Shown here: positions 2,231 through 20,432 of the stretch, piece by piece
Numbering within the stretch: the stretch's first letter is position 1
Layout of the letters: every line of letters starts with the position of its first letter
Virus record (IMG/VR): IMGVR_UViG_3300025108_006086
Coordinates: 1 to 27,899 of that record
From: a virus
Reading direction: 5' to 3' (one strand)
DNA length: 27,899 bases
Position numbers and translations under genes: made by a program
The notes under the pieces: model-generated
The model's database searches: none
The model's input: the letters and a program-made list of their open reading frames with translations, nothing else
What the model was told of the DNA's origin: nothing

Positions 2231-2548
2231 TTAAGTCGTTGGTTCTAAAGATACTGATAACGGATAATTTGCAACTCTACTTGCTTTGACTGTTTCTTCA
2301 ACTTTTTGTTCTGCAATTTCTAAGTTGTACATTCCTACAATTGCTTTTTCGTCTGTGTGTATTTTATGTGCTAAATCAGCCGACGTGTCTGCATCGTGGT
2401 TAAACAGTGCCATAAGTATATCAATAACAAAGTCGAATGGAGTTTTATCATCATTGTGCATTACAACATAATATTGCTTCGGTTCGCCTATTGTTAATAA
2501 CGAATTATCCGATGACTGTATCTTTTCTTTTTCGTTACTTTCAATCAT
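2231..2548 (-). CDS. clpS: ClpS, N-degron adaptor of Clp protease
   Basis: 105 aa from the ATG at 2548, chosen over a longer frame because GAGGGAGAG precedes it at good spacing. After an acidic disordered tail of about 25 residues, the core reads YYVVMHNDDKTPFDFVIDIL, the ClpS signature that forms the N-degron pocket (Asn-Asp-Asp and Thr). The later His in AHKIHTDEKAIVG corresponds to the pocket His, followed by EIAEQKVE and a C-terminal strand. In bacteria ClpS hands proteins with Leu, Phe, Tyr or Trp N-termini to ClpAP. No clpA or clpP is in the window; phage clpX is two kilobases upstream. It is preceded by both a sigma70 and a late promoter, with a hairpin between them. Confidence 0.93.
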   Translation of the reverse strand: MIESNEKEKIQSSDNSLLTIGEPKQYYVVMHNDDKTPFDFVIDILMALFNHDADTSADLAHKIHTDEKAIVGMYNLEIAEQKVEETVKASRVANYPLSVSLEPTT

Positions 2549-2673: not shown

Positions 2674-3102
2674 TTAGTTAATTTTGATAGACTTTGGTTT
2701 CTTTTCTTCTGGAACAATGCGTTCTAAAGAAATGTAAAGCATACCATTTTCCATCTTTGCTTCAACTACTTCAACGTATTCTGCTAATTTCCAAGTTCTT
2801 GTGAAACTTCTATTAGCAATACCTTTATGAAGATACTGAATATCTTCTGACTCTGTTTCTACTTTCTCACCTGTGATGGTAAGAGTGCCTTCTTGTACAT
2901 CGATTTTTAAATCATCTCGTACAAAACCAGCAAGTGCTAATGTGATTTGATATTTGTCATCACCAGTAGTCTCTACGTTGAAAGGGGGATACCCGTTGTT
3001 TACTCCAGTACTGAACGTTTGAAAGTCTTCGACCAATCGGTCAAATCCTAGCATTGTTCTGTGGAAGTCAGGCAGGGTTAATGTTGTTACGTGTCTTGTC
3101 AT
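2674..3102 (-). CDS. hsp20: Small heat-shock protein, IbpA/Hsp20 family
   Basis: 142 aa from the ATG at 3102, which follows AAGGAG; a longer frame to 3174 has no ribosome-binding site. An N-terminal arm (residues 1-38) leads into YPPFNVE and the alpha-crystallin domain: YQITLALAGF, LTITGEK, YLHKGIANRSFTRTWKLAEYVEV, and NGMLYISLERIVPEEKKPKSIKIN. The NGMLYISL strand and the C-terminal SIKIN tail (an I-x-I-type oligomerisation motif) are IbpA hallmarks. These ATP-independent holdases keep misfolding proteins soluble in the cytoplasm. Hsp20 genes are known in marine T4-like phages. Here it heads a short stretch toward clpS and is preceded by a hairpin at 3140-3158. Confidence 0.95.
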   Translation of the reverse strand: MTRHVTTLTLPDFHRTMLGFDRLVEDFQTFSTGVNNGYPPFNVETTGDDKYQITLALAGFVRDDLKIDVQEGTLTITGEKVETESEDIQYLHKGIANRSFTRTWKLAEYVEVVEAKMENGMLYISLERIVPEEKKPKSIKIN

Positions 3103-3222: not shown

Positions 3223-3465
3223 CTATAACCCGATTTTTTCTGAAAAAAGTACTAAATTCTTTGCTGGACCAACATCTTTTGGTAGTCCACCATGTTTTTC
3301 TATATATTCTCGTAGTACTGCCTTGTACCAATTCCGAGAATTATGATGTGCCAATTTGTTGAAACGTGATATTCCATGACTTGTTCCGTCCATAGTTAAC
3401 AATGCTCTAGCAGACTCTTTCTGTAGAGTTCTTACATCTAATGTTTCAAGTACATCATCTGACAT
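3223..3465 (-). CDS. Conserved-looking small protein of unknown function
   Basis: 80 aa starting MSDDVLETLDVRTLQKESAR and ending GPAKNLVLFSEKIGL. I do not recognise a family. It is hydrophilic with predicted helices and an aromatic/basic centre (HHNSRNWYKAVLREYIEKHGG). The ATG at 3465 overlaps the bS21 stop by one base (TGATG), so it is the last gene of the clpX - infC - rpsU run and is probably coupled to bS21. The TTG codon just upstream is in frame but less likely as a start. A ribosome- or protease-linked role is inference from position only. Confidence 0.75.
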   Translation of the reverse strand: MSDDVLETLDVRTLQKESARALLTMDGTSHGISRFNKLAHHNSRNWYKAVLREYIEKHGGLPKDVGPAKNLVLFSEKIGL

Positions 3466-3728
3466 CAATACATTCTTTTCTTATGTAATTTATTCTTTGC
3501 TTGTTCACGCTTAGTGCGTTGCTTGGCTGCCGCTTTCATCTTCTTTCTTTTTTCAGTCGGTTTGATAAATGCTTGGCGTTCTCTAACTTCTTGTACTGTG
3601 CCTGCGTCTGAACATTTTCTTTTCCAAAGTCTTAATGCTCTTTCAAAATTATCGCCAACTACTTCAACGTGTGTGCCAATTGGTCTTTCTCTACCAGTTT
3701 TCTGTTTCTTTGCTACATATTTACCCAT
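3465..3728 (-). CDS. rpsU: Ribosomal protein bS21
   Basis: 87 aa. The core VEVVGDNFERALRLWKRKC is followed by a region matching the bS21 pattern (QEVRERQAFIKPTEKRK) and a strongly basic tail rich in Lys/Arg (KMKAAAKQRTKREQAKNKLHKKRMY). The N-terminal extension ([18 protein letters not shown]) is longer than in E. coli S21 (71 aa). bS21 sits on the 30S platform near the anti-Shine-Dalgarno end of 16S rRNA and influences initiation on natural mRNAs. Phage bS21 is known from pelagiphages and very large phages and can replace the host copy in ribosomes. The gene overlaps infC by 8 nt (ATGGGTAA), implying co-translation with IF-3. Confidence 0.93.
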   Translation of the reverse strand: MGKYVAKKQKTGRERPIGTHVEVVGDNFERALRLWKRKCSDAGTVQEVRERQAFIKPTEKRKKMKAAAKQRTKREQAKNKLHKKRMY

Positions 3729-4260
3729 CTTTAAATAACACTCCTATTATTCTATTACCATTTAGTGCTAAATGTGAATCATATTTAAAATTCTCTAAAT
3801 GTGTTTCAATCGCTTCTTTAAAATGATTAAATACTTCTGAACTATTAGAATTTTCTCTTCCACGCATCTGAATAGTTATCTTCACTTTTGCACCTTTGTC
3901 TAAAAATTCTTGGGCATGATTCAATTTTATAAGTAAATCATGCTCACATATATTAGGTTTAAACTTTATTTCTTTTGTATCTATTTTTGCCGCTCTGGCT
4001 TTTTTAGCCATTTCTTTTTCATTTTTCTGTTGCTCGTATATATACTTATTCAATTCTATAATTCTAGCAACAGGCGGTTTTGCTTTTTCAACAACTAGAA
4101 CTAAATCTAAGTCCTCTGCTTGTGCTTTATCTAGTGCTTCTTCTCTACTCATTATTCCTAATTGGGCTCTATCTGGCCCTATTACTCGCAATGTATCAAA
4201 TTTTATTTGATGGTTAGATACAATCATATTCTTTTGATTGCCCTTATATATTTTACCCAT
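3721..4260 (-). CDS. infC: Translation initiation factor IF-3
   Basis: 179 aa, the usual full length with both domains. N-terminal domain: [20 protein letters not shown] and [29 protein letters not shown], closely following the IF-3 pattern (KPPV.R..D/E..KY.YEQQK). The linker is rich in Lys/Ala. C-terminal domain: [41 protein letters not shown], then a divergent loop (NSNSSEVF) in place of the usual MAHxxLG, and a final strand [15 protein letters not shown]-3 binds the 30S subunit, keeps 50S off and proofreads the start codon and initiator tRNA. It overlaps clpX and rpsU by the same 8 nt at each end. It is clearly IF-3, but divergent enough in the C-domain loop that altered start selection is possible. 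Confidence 0.95.
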
Positions 4261-5521
4261 CTATGCCTTGTTCTGCTTTTTTGCTGTCTTTTTTGTCATC
4301 TTCTGCATATACTAGTATCGGTGTATCTACCTCTGTATTAATAAATTCTTTGGTAATAATAACTTTCTCTAAACCTTCTTGTGCCAATTTTGGAAGAGTA
4401 AACTGTAATTTGAGTAGTGATTTCTCTATAACACTTCTTAATCCTCTTGCACCTGTAGTATCTTCATTCGCCACTCTGGCAATGGCTGCCAGTGTATCAT
4501 CACCCATTTCTAGTTCTACACCATCTAATGAGAATAATTTTTTAAATTGTGCTACTATACTATTCTTCGGTTCAATTAAAATTCTTACTAATTCTTTTTC
4601 TGTTAATTCATCAAGTCCTACAATGATTGGAAATCTACCCATAAATTCAGGAATAAGACCATATTTAAGAAAATCTTGTGTTTTAATATGTTCTCTGGCG
4701 TTACATTCACAACTTCCCTTTTGTTTTGCACCAAAACCAATTCCAGGATTTGTGTTAACTCTGTTCTCTACAATCTTGTCAATACCAACAAATGCACCAC
4801 CGACAATGAACAGAATCTTTCTAGTATCTACTTCAATCATATCTTGGTTTGGATGCTTACGACCCCCGCCAGGTGGGACACGAACAACTGTTCCTTCTAC
4901 AATTTTAAGCAATGCTTGTTGAACACCTTCACCAGAAACGTCTTTTGTGATTGATAAGTTTTCACCTTTCTTGGCTTTCTTATCAATCTCATCGATATAA
5001 ACGATGCCTCGTTCTGCTTTTTCGACATCAAAATCTGATGCAATCAACAATCGTTGTACTACATTCTCTACATCTTCGCCTACATAACCACTTTCGGTTA
5101 ATGATGTAGCATCAATCTGAGCAAAGGGAACATCTAAGAACTTCGCAATAGTTTTACCTATCAAAGTTTTACCTGTACCACTTGGGCCAAAGACTAGAAT
5201 ATTAGACTTATCTAATTCAACATCGGTGTCAGTAGAGTTGATGCGTTTATAATGATTATATACCGCAACTGAAATTACTTCTTTTGCTTCATTTTGACCA
5301 ATGACGTGTTCATCTAGGTAATCTTTGATTTCTTCTGGAGTTGTAGACACAGATTTGTAATCAGGATTGTTTACATCTTCTGCTTTTACTTCGTGGATTA
5401 TGTCATGGCATAAATCAATACACTCATTACAAATGTATTGATTTGGTCCCGCAATTAATGTTTTAATTTCATTCTTTGGTTTCCCACAAAATGAACATTT
5501 AAATTCTTTATTTTCTGCCAA
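4253..5521 (-). CDS. clpX: ClpX, AAA+ unfoldase with zinc-binding domain
   Basis: 422 aa, full length. The N-terminal zinc domain has CSFCG and CNEC; then Walker A GPSGTGKT, pore loop [11 protein letters not shown], Walker [27 protein letters not shown], the RKH loop in [19 protein letters not shown] containing the IGF loop that docks ClpX on ClpP, MGRFPIIV, and sensor-2 [10 protein letters not shown]. Every catalytic and ClpP-binding element is present, so it should drive a host ClpP since none is encoded here. The start is TTG at 5521 with AGGTG 6 nt upstream; no in-frame ATG lies near. The gene overlaps infC by 8 nt. Native ClpX unfolds ssrA-tagged and other substrates; the phage copy may redirect the protease or remodel virion complexes. 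Confidence 0.96.
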
Positions 5522-5538
5522 TATGCACCTATGCCCTT

Positions 5539-5733
5539 TTACTTTTTAGTATTAGTGTCAACATCATCTAACCAACCGTCTCGTTTGAATACTTCTGTAT
5601 TTATCTTACGTTGGACTTCTTTCTTAACTTCTTCAACTTCTTCTGGAGTTAAGATTTCTTCGATTTCATCAACTTCTTCTTCGACTTCTTCGACTTCTTC
5701 TTCGATTTCTTCAGACGTGGCGATATCTATCAC
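5539..5733 (-). CDS. Acidic C-terminal extension ORF, probably reached by -1 frameshifting
   Basis: Counted from a GTG at 5733 this is 64 aa: a Glu-rich helix ([20 protein letters not shown]) followed by [15 protein letters not shown] and an aromatic, charged end ([14 protein letters not shown]). The GTG has no Shine-Dalgarno sequence. The same frame is open for another 19 codons upstream, without an ATG, back to the slippery run at 5790-5796 where the 496-aa protein ends. Together these make independent initiation less likely than a frameshift extension of the upstream gene, adding 83 residues. If it is a separate protein, it would be a small acidic coiled-coil of unknown role. The clpX start is 17 nt downstream. 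Confidence 0.6.
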
Positions 5734-5786
5734 TTTGTCATTAGTAATATTATCGCTTATTTTGGGTGAAATGTCAAGTGGTTTCT

Positions 5787-7277
5787 TTACTTTTTTTTTA
5801 GAAGTGAAACTTTATCAAAGATTTCTTCTTGTCTACCACCACTGTTTCTATGTTGAAAACTATAGTTTGCCGCAATTAAAAGTAATACTGCCAACGGGTC
5901 AAACACGAAAATGAACACAATGATAAGCCATCTAACTGCTTCATCAATTGTATCGTTGTCTGTGTTGTCATAAACCATTTCTGCAATATACTTGATAGGT
6001 CCAATCTCTGTTGCTATCTTTCTAATCTCACGTTCTAGTTCAAACTTCTGGTCAATTAGTCCGTCAATTGCATCATCATTCGCATTGATTTTTATCTGTA
6101 TTTCTTCAATCTCTGCTGAATTATCAACTTGTGATACATTCAATAATTCATTGCGGAGTCTATCAAGTATGATTAAAGAACCAGCAACTTCTCTATCTGC
6201 TTTCTCACGCAATCTTTTGATTTCTTCTCTAGCGGAAGATATTACAGGAGACTCTACTCCTCTTGCATCTTCTATTTTCACTAGTAATTCCATCTTGCGT
6301 TCATTCACTGATTGAGTATCTTCGCCTCTTAACTTCACTACCATATTACTAAGTCTGATGCGTTCTTGTTTATATTGATTTTCAAAGTCTTTACGAACTT
6401 CTGCAATCTTCATTCCTAGTTCAGTTAGTTTCAATGCATTCGCTTCGTGCCATTCTTTAATAACTTCTGAATTTCTCCAGTAACCCCAAGGAATACCAAC
6501 GACTTGTTGTGCTTTCTTCAAGTCTTCTTGTGTACCAGATTTTGACATCTCTTTAAGTGTAGCAGTATCAGATTTGATTTTATCAATCTGGTCCTGAAAT
6601 GGTGCTACTGCATACTCATAACTTGTTGTATCTTTGCCAACATTATCAATATCATTTTCATACTTCTTGGCTTGTTCTTCTAACTTATCAAGTTCTTTAT
6701 CTAGGCTATCCATTTGATTTAAATATGGTGCAACTTTATTATCATCTTTTGATAGTTCAGTAGTAATGATTAAATTCTGTTCATCGATAGAAGGTTGAAT
6801 ACGAACCATAACATTGTCCATTCTGTTTTCTTCTGTATCAATTTGTTCTTGTACTTTTGAAGTGTCTGTTTCACCTTCAGAATCTAGTTTTATAATTTTC
6901 AGTTCAAGTCTATCATTTGTGTTTTCATATCTAGCCATATCCTGTACGATGCGTTCAATACGGGCAGTATTTTCTTCACTATCGGCAGCCTGTTCTAAAT
7001 GTGCTTTTGATAGGAAACCAAAAATACCCATTGAAGTAATGAGCATTAGGATTACTACTGCAATTGTAAGATATGATTTTAAAAGAAATGGTGCCCTTTT
7101 CCAGTTTCTATAAACCCAAGATGCTGATACTAATTTACCAACTTCTAGTGCTACTGCCATAATGGCAACTGAAACGGCGGACGCAGTAAAGATGGCCATA
7201 AGACCAGCGACTGAGAACCAAGCGGCAATTGCCGCAATTGTAATGGCGGTTATAAATGTAATTATCGGAAATAACAT
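5787..7277 (-). CDS. Membrane-anchored coiled-coil protein, 496 aa (about 579 aa if frameshifted)
   Basis: ATG at 7277 follows a strong AGAGGAGG. About three hydrophobic segments in residues 3-90 (including ITAITIAAIAAWFSVAGLMA and YLTIAVVILMLITSMGIFGF) are followed by about 340 residues of charged heptad-like coiled coil, interrupted by a GIPWGYWRN stretch near residue 265. A last transmembrane helix comes near residue 450 (WLIIVFIFVFDPLAVLLLIA), then a basic tail ending LLKKK. The domain between the membrane segments is long enough to span or line a compartment. I do not recognise a family name. Expression ahead of it includes a T4-type late motif, hinting at a late or virion-associated role. 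The stop is immediately preceded by A_AAA_AAG, see the frameshift site. Confidence 0.85.
   Translation of the reverse strand: MLFPIITFITAITIAAIAAWFSVAGLMAIFTASAVSVAIMAVALEVGKLVSASWVYRNWKRAPFLLKSYLTIAVVILMLITSMGIFGFLSKAHLEQAADSEENTARIERIVQDMARYENTNDRLELKIIKLDSEGETDTSKVQEQIDTEENRMDNVMVRIQPSIDEQNLIITTELSKDDNKVAPYLNQMDSLDKELDKLEEQAKKYENDIDNVGKDTTSYEYAVAPFQDQIDKIKSDTATLKEMSKSGTQEDLKKAQQVVGIPWGYWRNSEVIKEWHEANALKLTELGMKIAEVRKDFENQYKQERIRLSNMVVKLRGEDTQSVNERKMELLVKIEDARGVESPVISSAREEIKRLREKADREVAGSLIILDRLRNELLNVSQVDNSAEIEEIQIKINANDDAIDGLIDQKFELEREIRKIATEIGPIKYIAEMVYDNTDNDTIDEAVRWLIIVFIFVFDPLAVLLLIAANYSFQHRNSGGRQEEIFDKVSLLKKK
5790..5796 (-). promoter_or_regulatory. Candidate programmed -1 ribosomal frameshift site (A_AAA_AAG)
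   Basis: The zero frame reads CTA AAA AAA AAG TAA. The heptamer A AAA AAG, the same as the dnaX slippery site of E. coli, occupies 5796-5790, directly before the TAA stop. A -1 slip moves the ribosome to GTA AAG AAA CCA..., open for 83 codons to the stop at 5539. It is part of a run of nine A residues, so a sequencing or assembly length error (ten As would fuse the frames without slipping) is the main alternative. Confidence 0.6.
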
Positions 7278-8486: not shown

Positions 8487-8501
8487 CAATATATTATTCC
8501 T

Positions 8502-11135: not shown

Positions 11136-11603
11136 TTATTGCCAACGTGATTTTCTTCTTCCGTTGTTTTTTGCGGCTCTTGTATCAAAAGTAACGCCAT
11201 TGAGGTGGTCACATTCGTGTTGAAATGCTTGTGCCCATACTCCAACAAATGTTGATGACTTTCTTTCTCCTTGTAAATCTGTAAAAGTTCCTACAATCTT
11301 ATTATGTCTAGTGATTTTTAATTCTAGTCCAGGAAAACTAACACATCCTTCTAAGAATTCTTCATCTTCACTGTCTTCTGCTTTATCCCACATTGGATTT
11401 ATACAAACAACAAAACCAGTATCTTTATGTCCGATTATCATAAGTGCTGTATTTTCGCCAACTTGTGGAGCGGCAAGACCAATTGCGTCTTTTTCTTGCA
11501 TTGTTACAATCATATCATAAACTAGTTTTTCAGAATGTTCTGAAATAATGTGTTCATCACACTTAGTTTTCAATATCTTATTATTTTTATCAACTAATTT
11601 CAT
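11136..11603 (-). CDS. def: Peptide deformylase
   Basis: 155 aa with all three catalytic motifs: GLAAPQVG (motif 1), EGCVSFPG (motif 2, with the metal-binding Cys) and QHECDHLNG (motif 3, HExxH with catalytic Glu). It removes formyl from the N-terminal Met of nascent proteins. Marine T4-like phage deformylases are known and shorter than bacterial ones (about 170 aa) because they lack the C-terminal helix; this one ends in a short basic tail (AAKNNGRRKSRWQ). A T4-type late element sits 24 nt upstream. With phage IF-3, bS21 and ClpS in the same window it adds to a set acting on initiation and N-terminal fate of proteins. Confidence 0.96.
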   Translation of the reverse strand: MKLVDKNNKILKTKCDEHIISEHSEKLVYDMIVTMQEKDAIGLAAPQVGENTALMIIGHKDTGFVVCINPMWDKAEDSEDEEFLEGCVSFPGLELKITRHNKIVGTFTDLQGERKSSTFVGVWAQAFQHECDHLNGVTFDTRAAKNNGRRKSRWQ

Positions 11604-19670: not shown

Positions 19671-20432
19671 TTACTCATTCTCGTCTGTTGTTGGAGTTAT
19701 AGTACTAGGTGTATCAGCGTTTTTTAAATCAGGTGATGGAGTTGCCTTGTTTCGTCTCTCATTTTCTATCCACTCTTTAGCATTACGGTTTGTAACTGGA
19801 GCATTCAGAAACGCTGTAACATACTTCTGAACTGTTTCAAAGTTTTTCTTTCTATCTGGGTCTGATAAGTCACCATTGTTGTCAACAACTTGAAACCTGA
19901 TTTCTCCGAATATTTGTTGATACTTCTTCATATTGTTCTGTGCATCATTCCACATCTTTGAAACTTCTTCTGGCTTTAGAGTTCTTTTTCTATTAAGGTT
20001 TCGTTCTTGTGCGACATCCAAACTTGTATTCACAAAAACCATCATACATTGATAACCCATTTGTGTTAGTTTTTCTTTGGCACCCACTATCTTACTAACA
20101 TCTCTTCCTGTTCCGTCAATAATAACACCTAATCTACCATTTAAGTACATTTGTTCTCTTTTAGCAGTTACTTCTTTTGCTCTGCCACGAATTTCTTGAC
20201 CTTTGTCAGAATAGACAACATCTGGGTCACCATAATCTAGTCCTTCTTTGCCCATCTTGTATTCGTATATATCGTCTGAATTAACGACTCTTAGGCCGCC
20301 GCCTTTTAAAATAGGTGAATTTACTATACGACTTTTGCCACTTCCTGGACCACCAGCCATAAACACTGCTTTAAAGATATGAGGGTCATCGACACCTTCT
20401 TCTACACTACTAATTATTTCATTTACTCTCAT
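19671..20432 (-). CDS. P-loop kinase, zeta-toxin-like
   Basis: 253 aa. VFMAGGPGSGKSRIV near residue 30 is a Walker A. NSDDIYEYKMGKEGLDY gives an Asp-Asp acceptor-binding stretch as in zeta toxins, GVIIDGTGRD supplies the second-strand Asp, and RNLNRKR is a basic lid segment. Zeta-like kinases phosphorylate UDP-N-acetylglucosamine or other small molecules; phage relatives may modify nucleotides or nucleic acids. The C-terminal 40 residues (KATPSPDLKNADTPSTITPT...) are a disordered tail. No antitoxin (epsilon-like) gene is adjacent, so an addiction module is unlikely. Expression seems dual: a sigma70 promoter at 20497-20525 and a late element at 20461-20468. Confidence 0.78.
   Translation of the reverse strand: MRVNEIISSVEEGVDDPHIFKAVFMAGGPGSGKSRIVNSPILKGGGLRVVNSDDIYEYKMGKEGLDYGDPDVVYSDKGQEIRGRAKEVTAKREQMYLNGRLGVIIDGTGRDVSKIVGAKEKLTQMGYQCMMVFVNTSLDVAQERNLNRKRTLKPEEVSKMWNDAQNNMKKYQQIFGEIRFQVVDNNGDLSDPDRKKNFETVQKYVTAFLNAPVTNRNAKEWIENERRNKATPSPDLKNADTPSTITPTTDENE

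Follow-up and report, generated by a model that had tools for sequence, protein, structure and literature searches.

A conserved clpX-infC-rpsU gene block in a probable jumbo-phage fragment, and a candidate viral lineage of initiation factor IF-3

What might a virus gain from carrying its own translation initiation factor 3 (IF-3) beside its own copy of ribosomal protein bS21? The question is raised by a 27.9-kb virus fragment (IMG/VR record IMGVR_UViG_3300025108_006086, positions 1 to 27,899, the whole of which is referred to below as the window) in which a first-pass annotation described the genes clpX, infC and rpsU with overlapping reading frames at 3465-5521. Both the gene names and the coordinates are correct, with all three genes on the minus strand, and they form part of a longer series that, in order of transcription, encodes a 496-aa membrane/coiled-coil protein, ClpX, IF-3, bS21, an 80-aa protein, Hsp20 and ClpS.

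The 496-aa protein (5787..7277, minus strand, as are all features of the series) heads the conserved island. The ClpX unfoldase (4253..5521, 422 aa, TTG start) scores 566 bits against its NCBIfam equivalog model, for which the cut-off is 359, and retains the Zn finger, Walker A (GPSGTGKT), Walker B (IVYIDE), the pore loop GYVGED and the IGF loop that docks ClpP. It is followed by infC (3721..4260), encoding a two-domain IF-3 of 179 aa, and by rpsU (3465..3728), whose 87-aa product carries a basic N-terminal extension of ∼17 aa and scores 54 bits with TIGR00030 (cut-off 29), placing it within the bS21 family. Start and stop codons overlap by 8 nt at both the ClpX/IF-3 and the IF-3/bS21 junctions, each of which reads ATGGGTAA, and rpsU is coupled to the 80-aa reading frame (3223..3465) through the overlap TGATG, a layout that is expected of translational coupling. 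An Hsp20/IbpA-like small heat-shock protein (2674..3102, ATG at 3102, Shine-Dalgarno (SD) motif AAGGAG) and a ClpS adaptor (2231..2548, ATG at 2548, SD GAGGGAG) complete the series. A search for known RNA elements gave none at gathering thresholds. The 80-aa protein that adjoins bS21 is predicted to be all-helical (AlphaFold pLDDT of 90) and is present at 26 related loci as well; it has no Pfam, PHROG or NCBIfam match and no relative was found in named phages. An assignment of function from its fold was abandoned since the PDB gave no significant match.

The window most likely derives from a jumbo phage, that is, a phage with a genome larger than 200 kb, of which the 27.9 kb available here is a fragment. 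The sequences most closely related to it are fragments of T4-type jumbo phages, and contigs carrying the cluster reach 342 kb within the window's own IF-3/ClpX clade and 453 kb in the wider set of loci that keep IF-3. In the large terminase subunit (TerL), a close relative shares 53% identity with PA5oct, 52% with Atu_ph07 and 49% with Phosso, values that point to a T4-type jumbo myovirus as the source. A bacterial chromosome as the origin of the run was considered and discarded on the basis of the virus record itself, the presence in the window of genes typical of phages, such as those for a PAAR spike and a prohead-related protein, and the TerL of relatives; a virus origin is thus borne out and bacterial flanks were not seen. 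Several further genes of the window, all on the minus strand, are recorded here in their own right. Adjoining genes for the PrkA (YeaG) kinase, DUF444 (YeaH) and SpoVR occur in this phage at 14032-18788, with the PrkA sharing 57-61% identity with its counterparts in three phages that are 634-642 kb in size. A phage peptide deformylase gene (PHROG 2890, 11136-11603) precedes the module here, as it does in most of the closest relatives, and a P-loop kinase with a Zeta-toxin/AAA_33 match is found at 19671-20432. Among 15 large contigs searched for ClpP, 8 carry a true gene for it (E below 1e-64), and the weaker matches are probably ClpP-fold prohead proteases.

The evidence that the three genes belong together comes from related loci, counted as distinct after de-duplication by exact sequence only. 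The order ClpX-IF-3-bS21-80aa is kept in each of the 13 close relatives for which the stretch is complete, with Hsp20 and ClpS next wherever the contig extends far enough. When the search was seeded with IF-3, bS21 lay within 200 nt downstream in 46 of 55 distinct loci and ClpX within 200 nt upstream in 25 of 55; seeded with ClpX, it returned IF-3 within 200 nt downstream in 53 of 69 and bS21 downstream in 62 of 69. Distances between the proteins are correlated (Mantel r of 0.70-0.91, none of 999 permutations being as high), with r = 0.91 for ClpX and IF-3 and r = 0.85 for IF-3 and bS21. Because the same order recurs in all 13 relatives and in most of ∼100 distinct loci, and because the dN/dS of IF-3 among close relatives is about 0.1-0.15, the arrangement is not a product of chance. 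These comparisons show clpX, infC and rpsU to be intact and overlapping genes, evidently under purifying selection and co-inherited in fixed order with Hsp20 and ClpS, so that the pairing of IF-3 with bS21 is stronger than was first claimed: it belongs to a conserved, co-diverging module.

The module also has variants. In one set of loci ClpX is followed directly by bS21, without IF-3; a degenerate IF-3 hidden between the two was ruled out, the room being insufficient. On a ClpX tree, which is unrooted and whose long branches leave the placement of PA5oct unsure, four changes suffice to account for the presence of IF-3, and groups lacking the factor are nested among those that bear it. In a further clade (L041-L076) an unrelated protein of ∼140 aa (VTPPDM...GP) stands in place of ClpX, after the membrane protein and before IF-3, and the idea that this gap held a zinc-finger-only ClpX decoy was dropped accordingly.

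That the infC product is a complete two-domain IF-3, as originally described, is confirmed by family profiles, the membership models being TIGR00168 together with PF05198 and PF00707. The TIGR00168 score is 141 bits (cut-off 60), and both Pfam domains are found, IF3_N with an E-value of 6e-24 (84 vs 27 bits) and IF3_C with 1e-19 (71 vs 35 bits). Structure prediction returned the IF-3 fold, with both domains modeled by AlphaFold at a mean pLDDT of 80: an N domain, a long linker helix and a beta-alpha-beta-alpha-beta-beta C domain. The best Foldseek matches to the model are IF-3 structures, among them IF-3 on the 30S subunit (5lmn, E of 2e-16). In sequence the protein is distant from its bacterial counterparts, with an identity of at most 40% and a median of 34%, as compared with the median of 59% for E. 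coli IF-3 against the same panel.

The departure of the C-domain loop from the usual MAHxxLG that had been pointed out earlier is real and common to the clade. In E. coli numbering, 90% of the bacterial IF-3s retain H137, as against 9% of those from phages; at position 168, Arg or Lys is found in 96% of the bacterial proteins and Asn in 81% of the phage ones; and Q169 is replaced by Arg in 62% of the phage proteins. The window IF-3 additionally has the changes R129Q, R147A and Y107L, with K110 and the RGRE motif retained. In E. coli IF-3 the arginines that are replaced here contact the 30S subunit. The phage-versus-bacteria contrast is a conservative one, since the bacterial sequences were selected for their similarity to the phage profile and should look more phage-like as a result. 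Single changes are also seen in some bacteria, with Asn at position 168 in a clostridial IF-3 and Arg at 137 in an actinomycete.

From where, then, does such an IF-3 come? In the trees 48 of 50 phage representatives fall on one side of a branch with an SH-aLRT support of 98 of 100, which stays at 97-98 once Clostridia, Bacilli, Actinomycetota, Fusobacteria and Thermus are added; the two outside the grouping belong to metagenomic megaphages (L017, L018). On these trees, for which the bacterial panel is mostly Pseudomonadota, without Bacteroidota or cyanobacteria, the phage IF-3s are placed as a separate viral lineage that is not nested within SAR11 or any sampled host. Nesting of the phage factor within one host clade, together with a host-like loop, was looked for and was not found. 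A derivation from SAR11 in particular finds no support in the trees, among whose taxa are alphaproteobacteria that have small genomes of 0.7-1.5 Mb.

Comparison with known phages shows which parts of this picture are familiar. IF-3 is documented in large phages, and the window is no exception to this, a jumbo phage being its most likely source. The IF-3s of PHROG 9787 (121Q, GAP32, CBB, XbC2) are two-domain proteins of large phages as well, about 30-35% identical to that of the window. In 121Q ClpS lies next door to IF-3, much as it is near IF-3 here, but neither 121Q nor XbC2 has bS21 or ClpX adjoining the factor. Closer in arrangement are the Sinorhizobium phages AP-J-162 and Phosso and the Agrobacterium phage Atu_ph07, in which clpX is directly followed by infC as in the window; the genomes of AP-J-162 and Phosso encode bS21 as well, in the case of Phosso 7 kb from clpX-infC and outside an overlapping cluster. 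The proximity of clpX to IF-3 in AP-J-162, along with a bS21, had already been noted (PMC11242549). Pseudomonas phage PA5oct (Arenbergviridae) shares the island order ClpX-bS21-Hsp20-ClpS but lacks an IF-3 between the first two. Phage bS21 is known from HTVC008M, from lake phages (Chen et al. 2022) and from huge phages (Al-Shayeb et al. 2020); it often bears a basic extension at its N-terminus and is sometimes encoded near Hsp20 and Clp genes (PMC9723584, PMC7162821), in neighborhoods from which, unlike the window, IF-3 is not reported. In the lake phages of Chen et al. bS21 sits in a terminase/capsid/portal cluster, whereas the bS21 of the window lies outside such a cluster, with ClpX, IF-3, the 80-aa protein, Hsp20 and ClpS as neighbors. 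The single pieces are thus already known: huge phages have IF-3 and bS21, AP-J-162 has clpX next to infC, and Hsp20/Clp genes occur near bS21. New here are the conservation and joint divergence of the whole series [membrane coiled-coil protein]-ClpX-IF-3-bS21-Hsp20-ClpS, together with the viral IF-3 lineage and the residue changes in its C domain; neither the module nor the lineage was found described in the literature searched, which was mostly without subscription papers and preprints.

One argument originally put forward for a role of IF-3, that TTG, GTG or near-leaderless starts in the vicinity would be sensitive to this factor, has turned out to be weak. Most of the nearby TTG and GTG starts are mechanical calls of open reading frames that have an ATG, and usually an SD motif, close by; in several (the 80-aa frame, those at 8489 and 10186, Hsp20 and ClpS) the ATG coincides with the called start or lies near it. 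SD motifs precede most genes in the window. The TTG of clpX is the exception, being kept in close relatives. Moreover, E. coli IF-3 screens out AUU, AUA, AUC and CUG rather than UUG and GUG. Upstream of clpX there is a promoter-like element (TTGACA-17-GATAAT, 5749..5777, minus strand), a match to consensus only, that is nearly invariant, with TTGAC and GATAAT kept in all 7 close sequences. The preceding 496-aa gene stops at CTA AAA AAA AAG TAA, beyond which the -1 frame is open for 83 codons (5539..5797, minus strand), and the end of this extension matches the C-terminus that homologues of the sister clade encode in frame (L027 RKINTELVKRSGWLDDL). A run of 9 to 11 A residues and the same -1 extension occur in all 7 distinct close-clade sequences, and the same A AAA AAG phase recurs in a second clade (L211, L218, L223, L225, L227, L238). 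A programmed -1 frameshift or transcript slippage at the end of this gene is likely.

How might such a module act? We lean, with some reservation, towards an interpretation in which this conserved island would serve jumbo phages in two ways at once, by taking over translation initiation and by controlling protein turnover. The genes would be produced together from one message, and the phage IF-3, by virtue of the retained K110 and RGRE, would bind host 30S subunits, seated differently on the platform because the contact positions H137, R129, R147 and R168 differ. Phage bS21 would occupy the neighboring platform site near the 3' end of 16S rRNA, the two proteins jointly shifting initiation in infected cells towards the mRNAs of the phage. 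Proteolysis would be redirected by phage ClpX and ClpS, with either phage or host ClpP. Al-Shayeb et al. have proposed that the initiation factors and bS21 of huge phages redirect or hijack initiation (PMC7162821), Chen et al. have tied phage bS21 to late infection and expression (PMC9723584), and the bS21 of HTVC008M, the only one for which this is shown, enters E. coli ribosomes (PMC6375957). A takeover appears to be the best-supported reading of the genomic data, with the intact domains, overlaps, fixed order, correlated divergence, purifying selection, viral lineage, phage-wide residue changes and IF-3 fold all counted in its favor. Counted against it are the impairment of E. coli ribosomes that contain the HTVC008M protein (PMC6375957), the distant bS21 of Phosso, the bacteria with single changes of the same kind, and the replaced arginines, which could equally mean weak binding to the 30S. 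It also counts against a takeover that in PA5oct and in those clades that keep the ClpX-bS21 island without IF-3 the factor must be dispensable.

The same observations have been weighed against other roles. IF-3 and bS21 could simply do their ordinary host job, sustaining initiation and subunit recycling through a long infection that demands much protein, with the choice of mRNA unchanged and the residue drift reflecting adaptation to the host ribosome. Purifying selection, the intact fold and the retention of RGRE and K110 all fit such support, as do the SD motifs and ATG starts of most phage genes, which resemble those of host genes, and the ATG with which infC of the window begins, in place of the AUU start of E. 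coli infC. Yet the changes at H137 and R168 are common to very divergent phages, which drift in each host separately would not predict, and we consider this account rather unlikely. The repacked loop and the changes at R129, R147 and R168 would also suit an altered IF-3 that binds the 30S and either blocks host initiation complexes or makes them dissociate, whether to inhibit host translation or to act in recycling or rescue, and Iyer et al. have suggested that the IF-3 of jumbo phages rescues ribosomes or supports translation (PMC7824862). Such a role is improbable given that both domains are complete and that the factor is coupled, in most loci, to bS21, a positive component of initiation. 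Least credible, and to our minds very hard to sustain, is that the two proteins ride in a proteolysis/chaperone island and have moonlighting or assembly functions that do not involve ribosomes; Asteriusvirus-type phages do have IF-3 with ClpS and DnaJ and no adjoining bS21, but the fold is fully conserved and bS21 and IF-3 are the tightest recurring pair.

A bolder form of the takeover interpretation can be put forward tentatively, as a possibility that we hold to be doubtful: that an old viral IF-3 lineage with a rebuilt 30S contact surface, together with viral bS21, may constitute a virus-specific initiation platform on host ribosomes that alters the start sites and mRNAs used. Since cultured phages are available both with IF-3 beside ClpX (Atu_ph07, Phosso) and with the island lacking IF-3 (PA5oct), the contributions of IF-3 and bS21 are separable. 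If the interpretation is correct, some viruses would bring a matched initiation factor and ribosomal protein with which to re-tune the selection of start sites by the host, going beyond the degradation of host mRNA or the addition of tRNAs, and the recurrence of this gene block in dozens of giant phages suggests a stable viral toolkit for takeover of the host ribosome.
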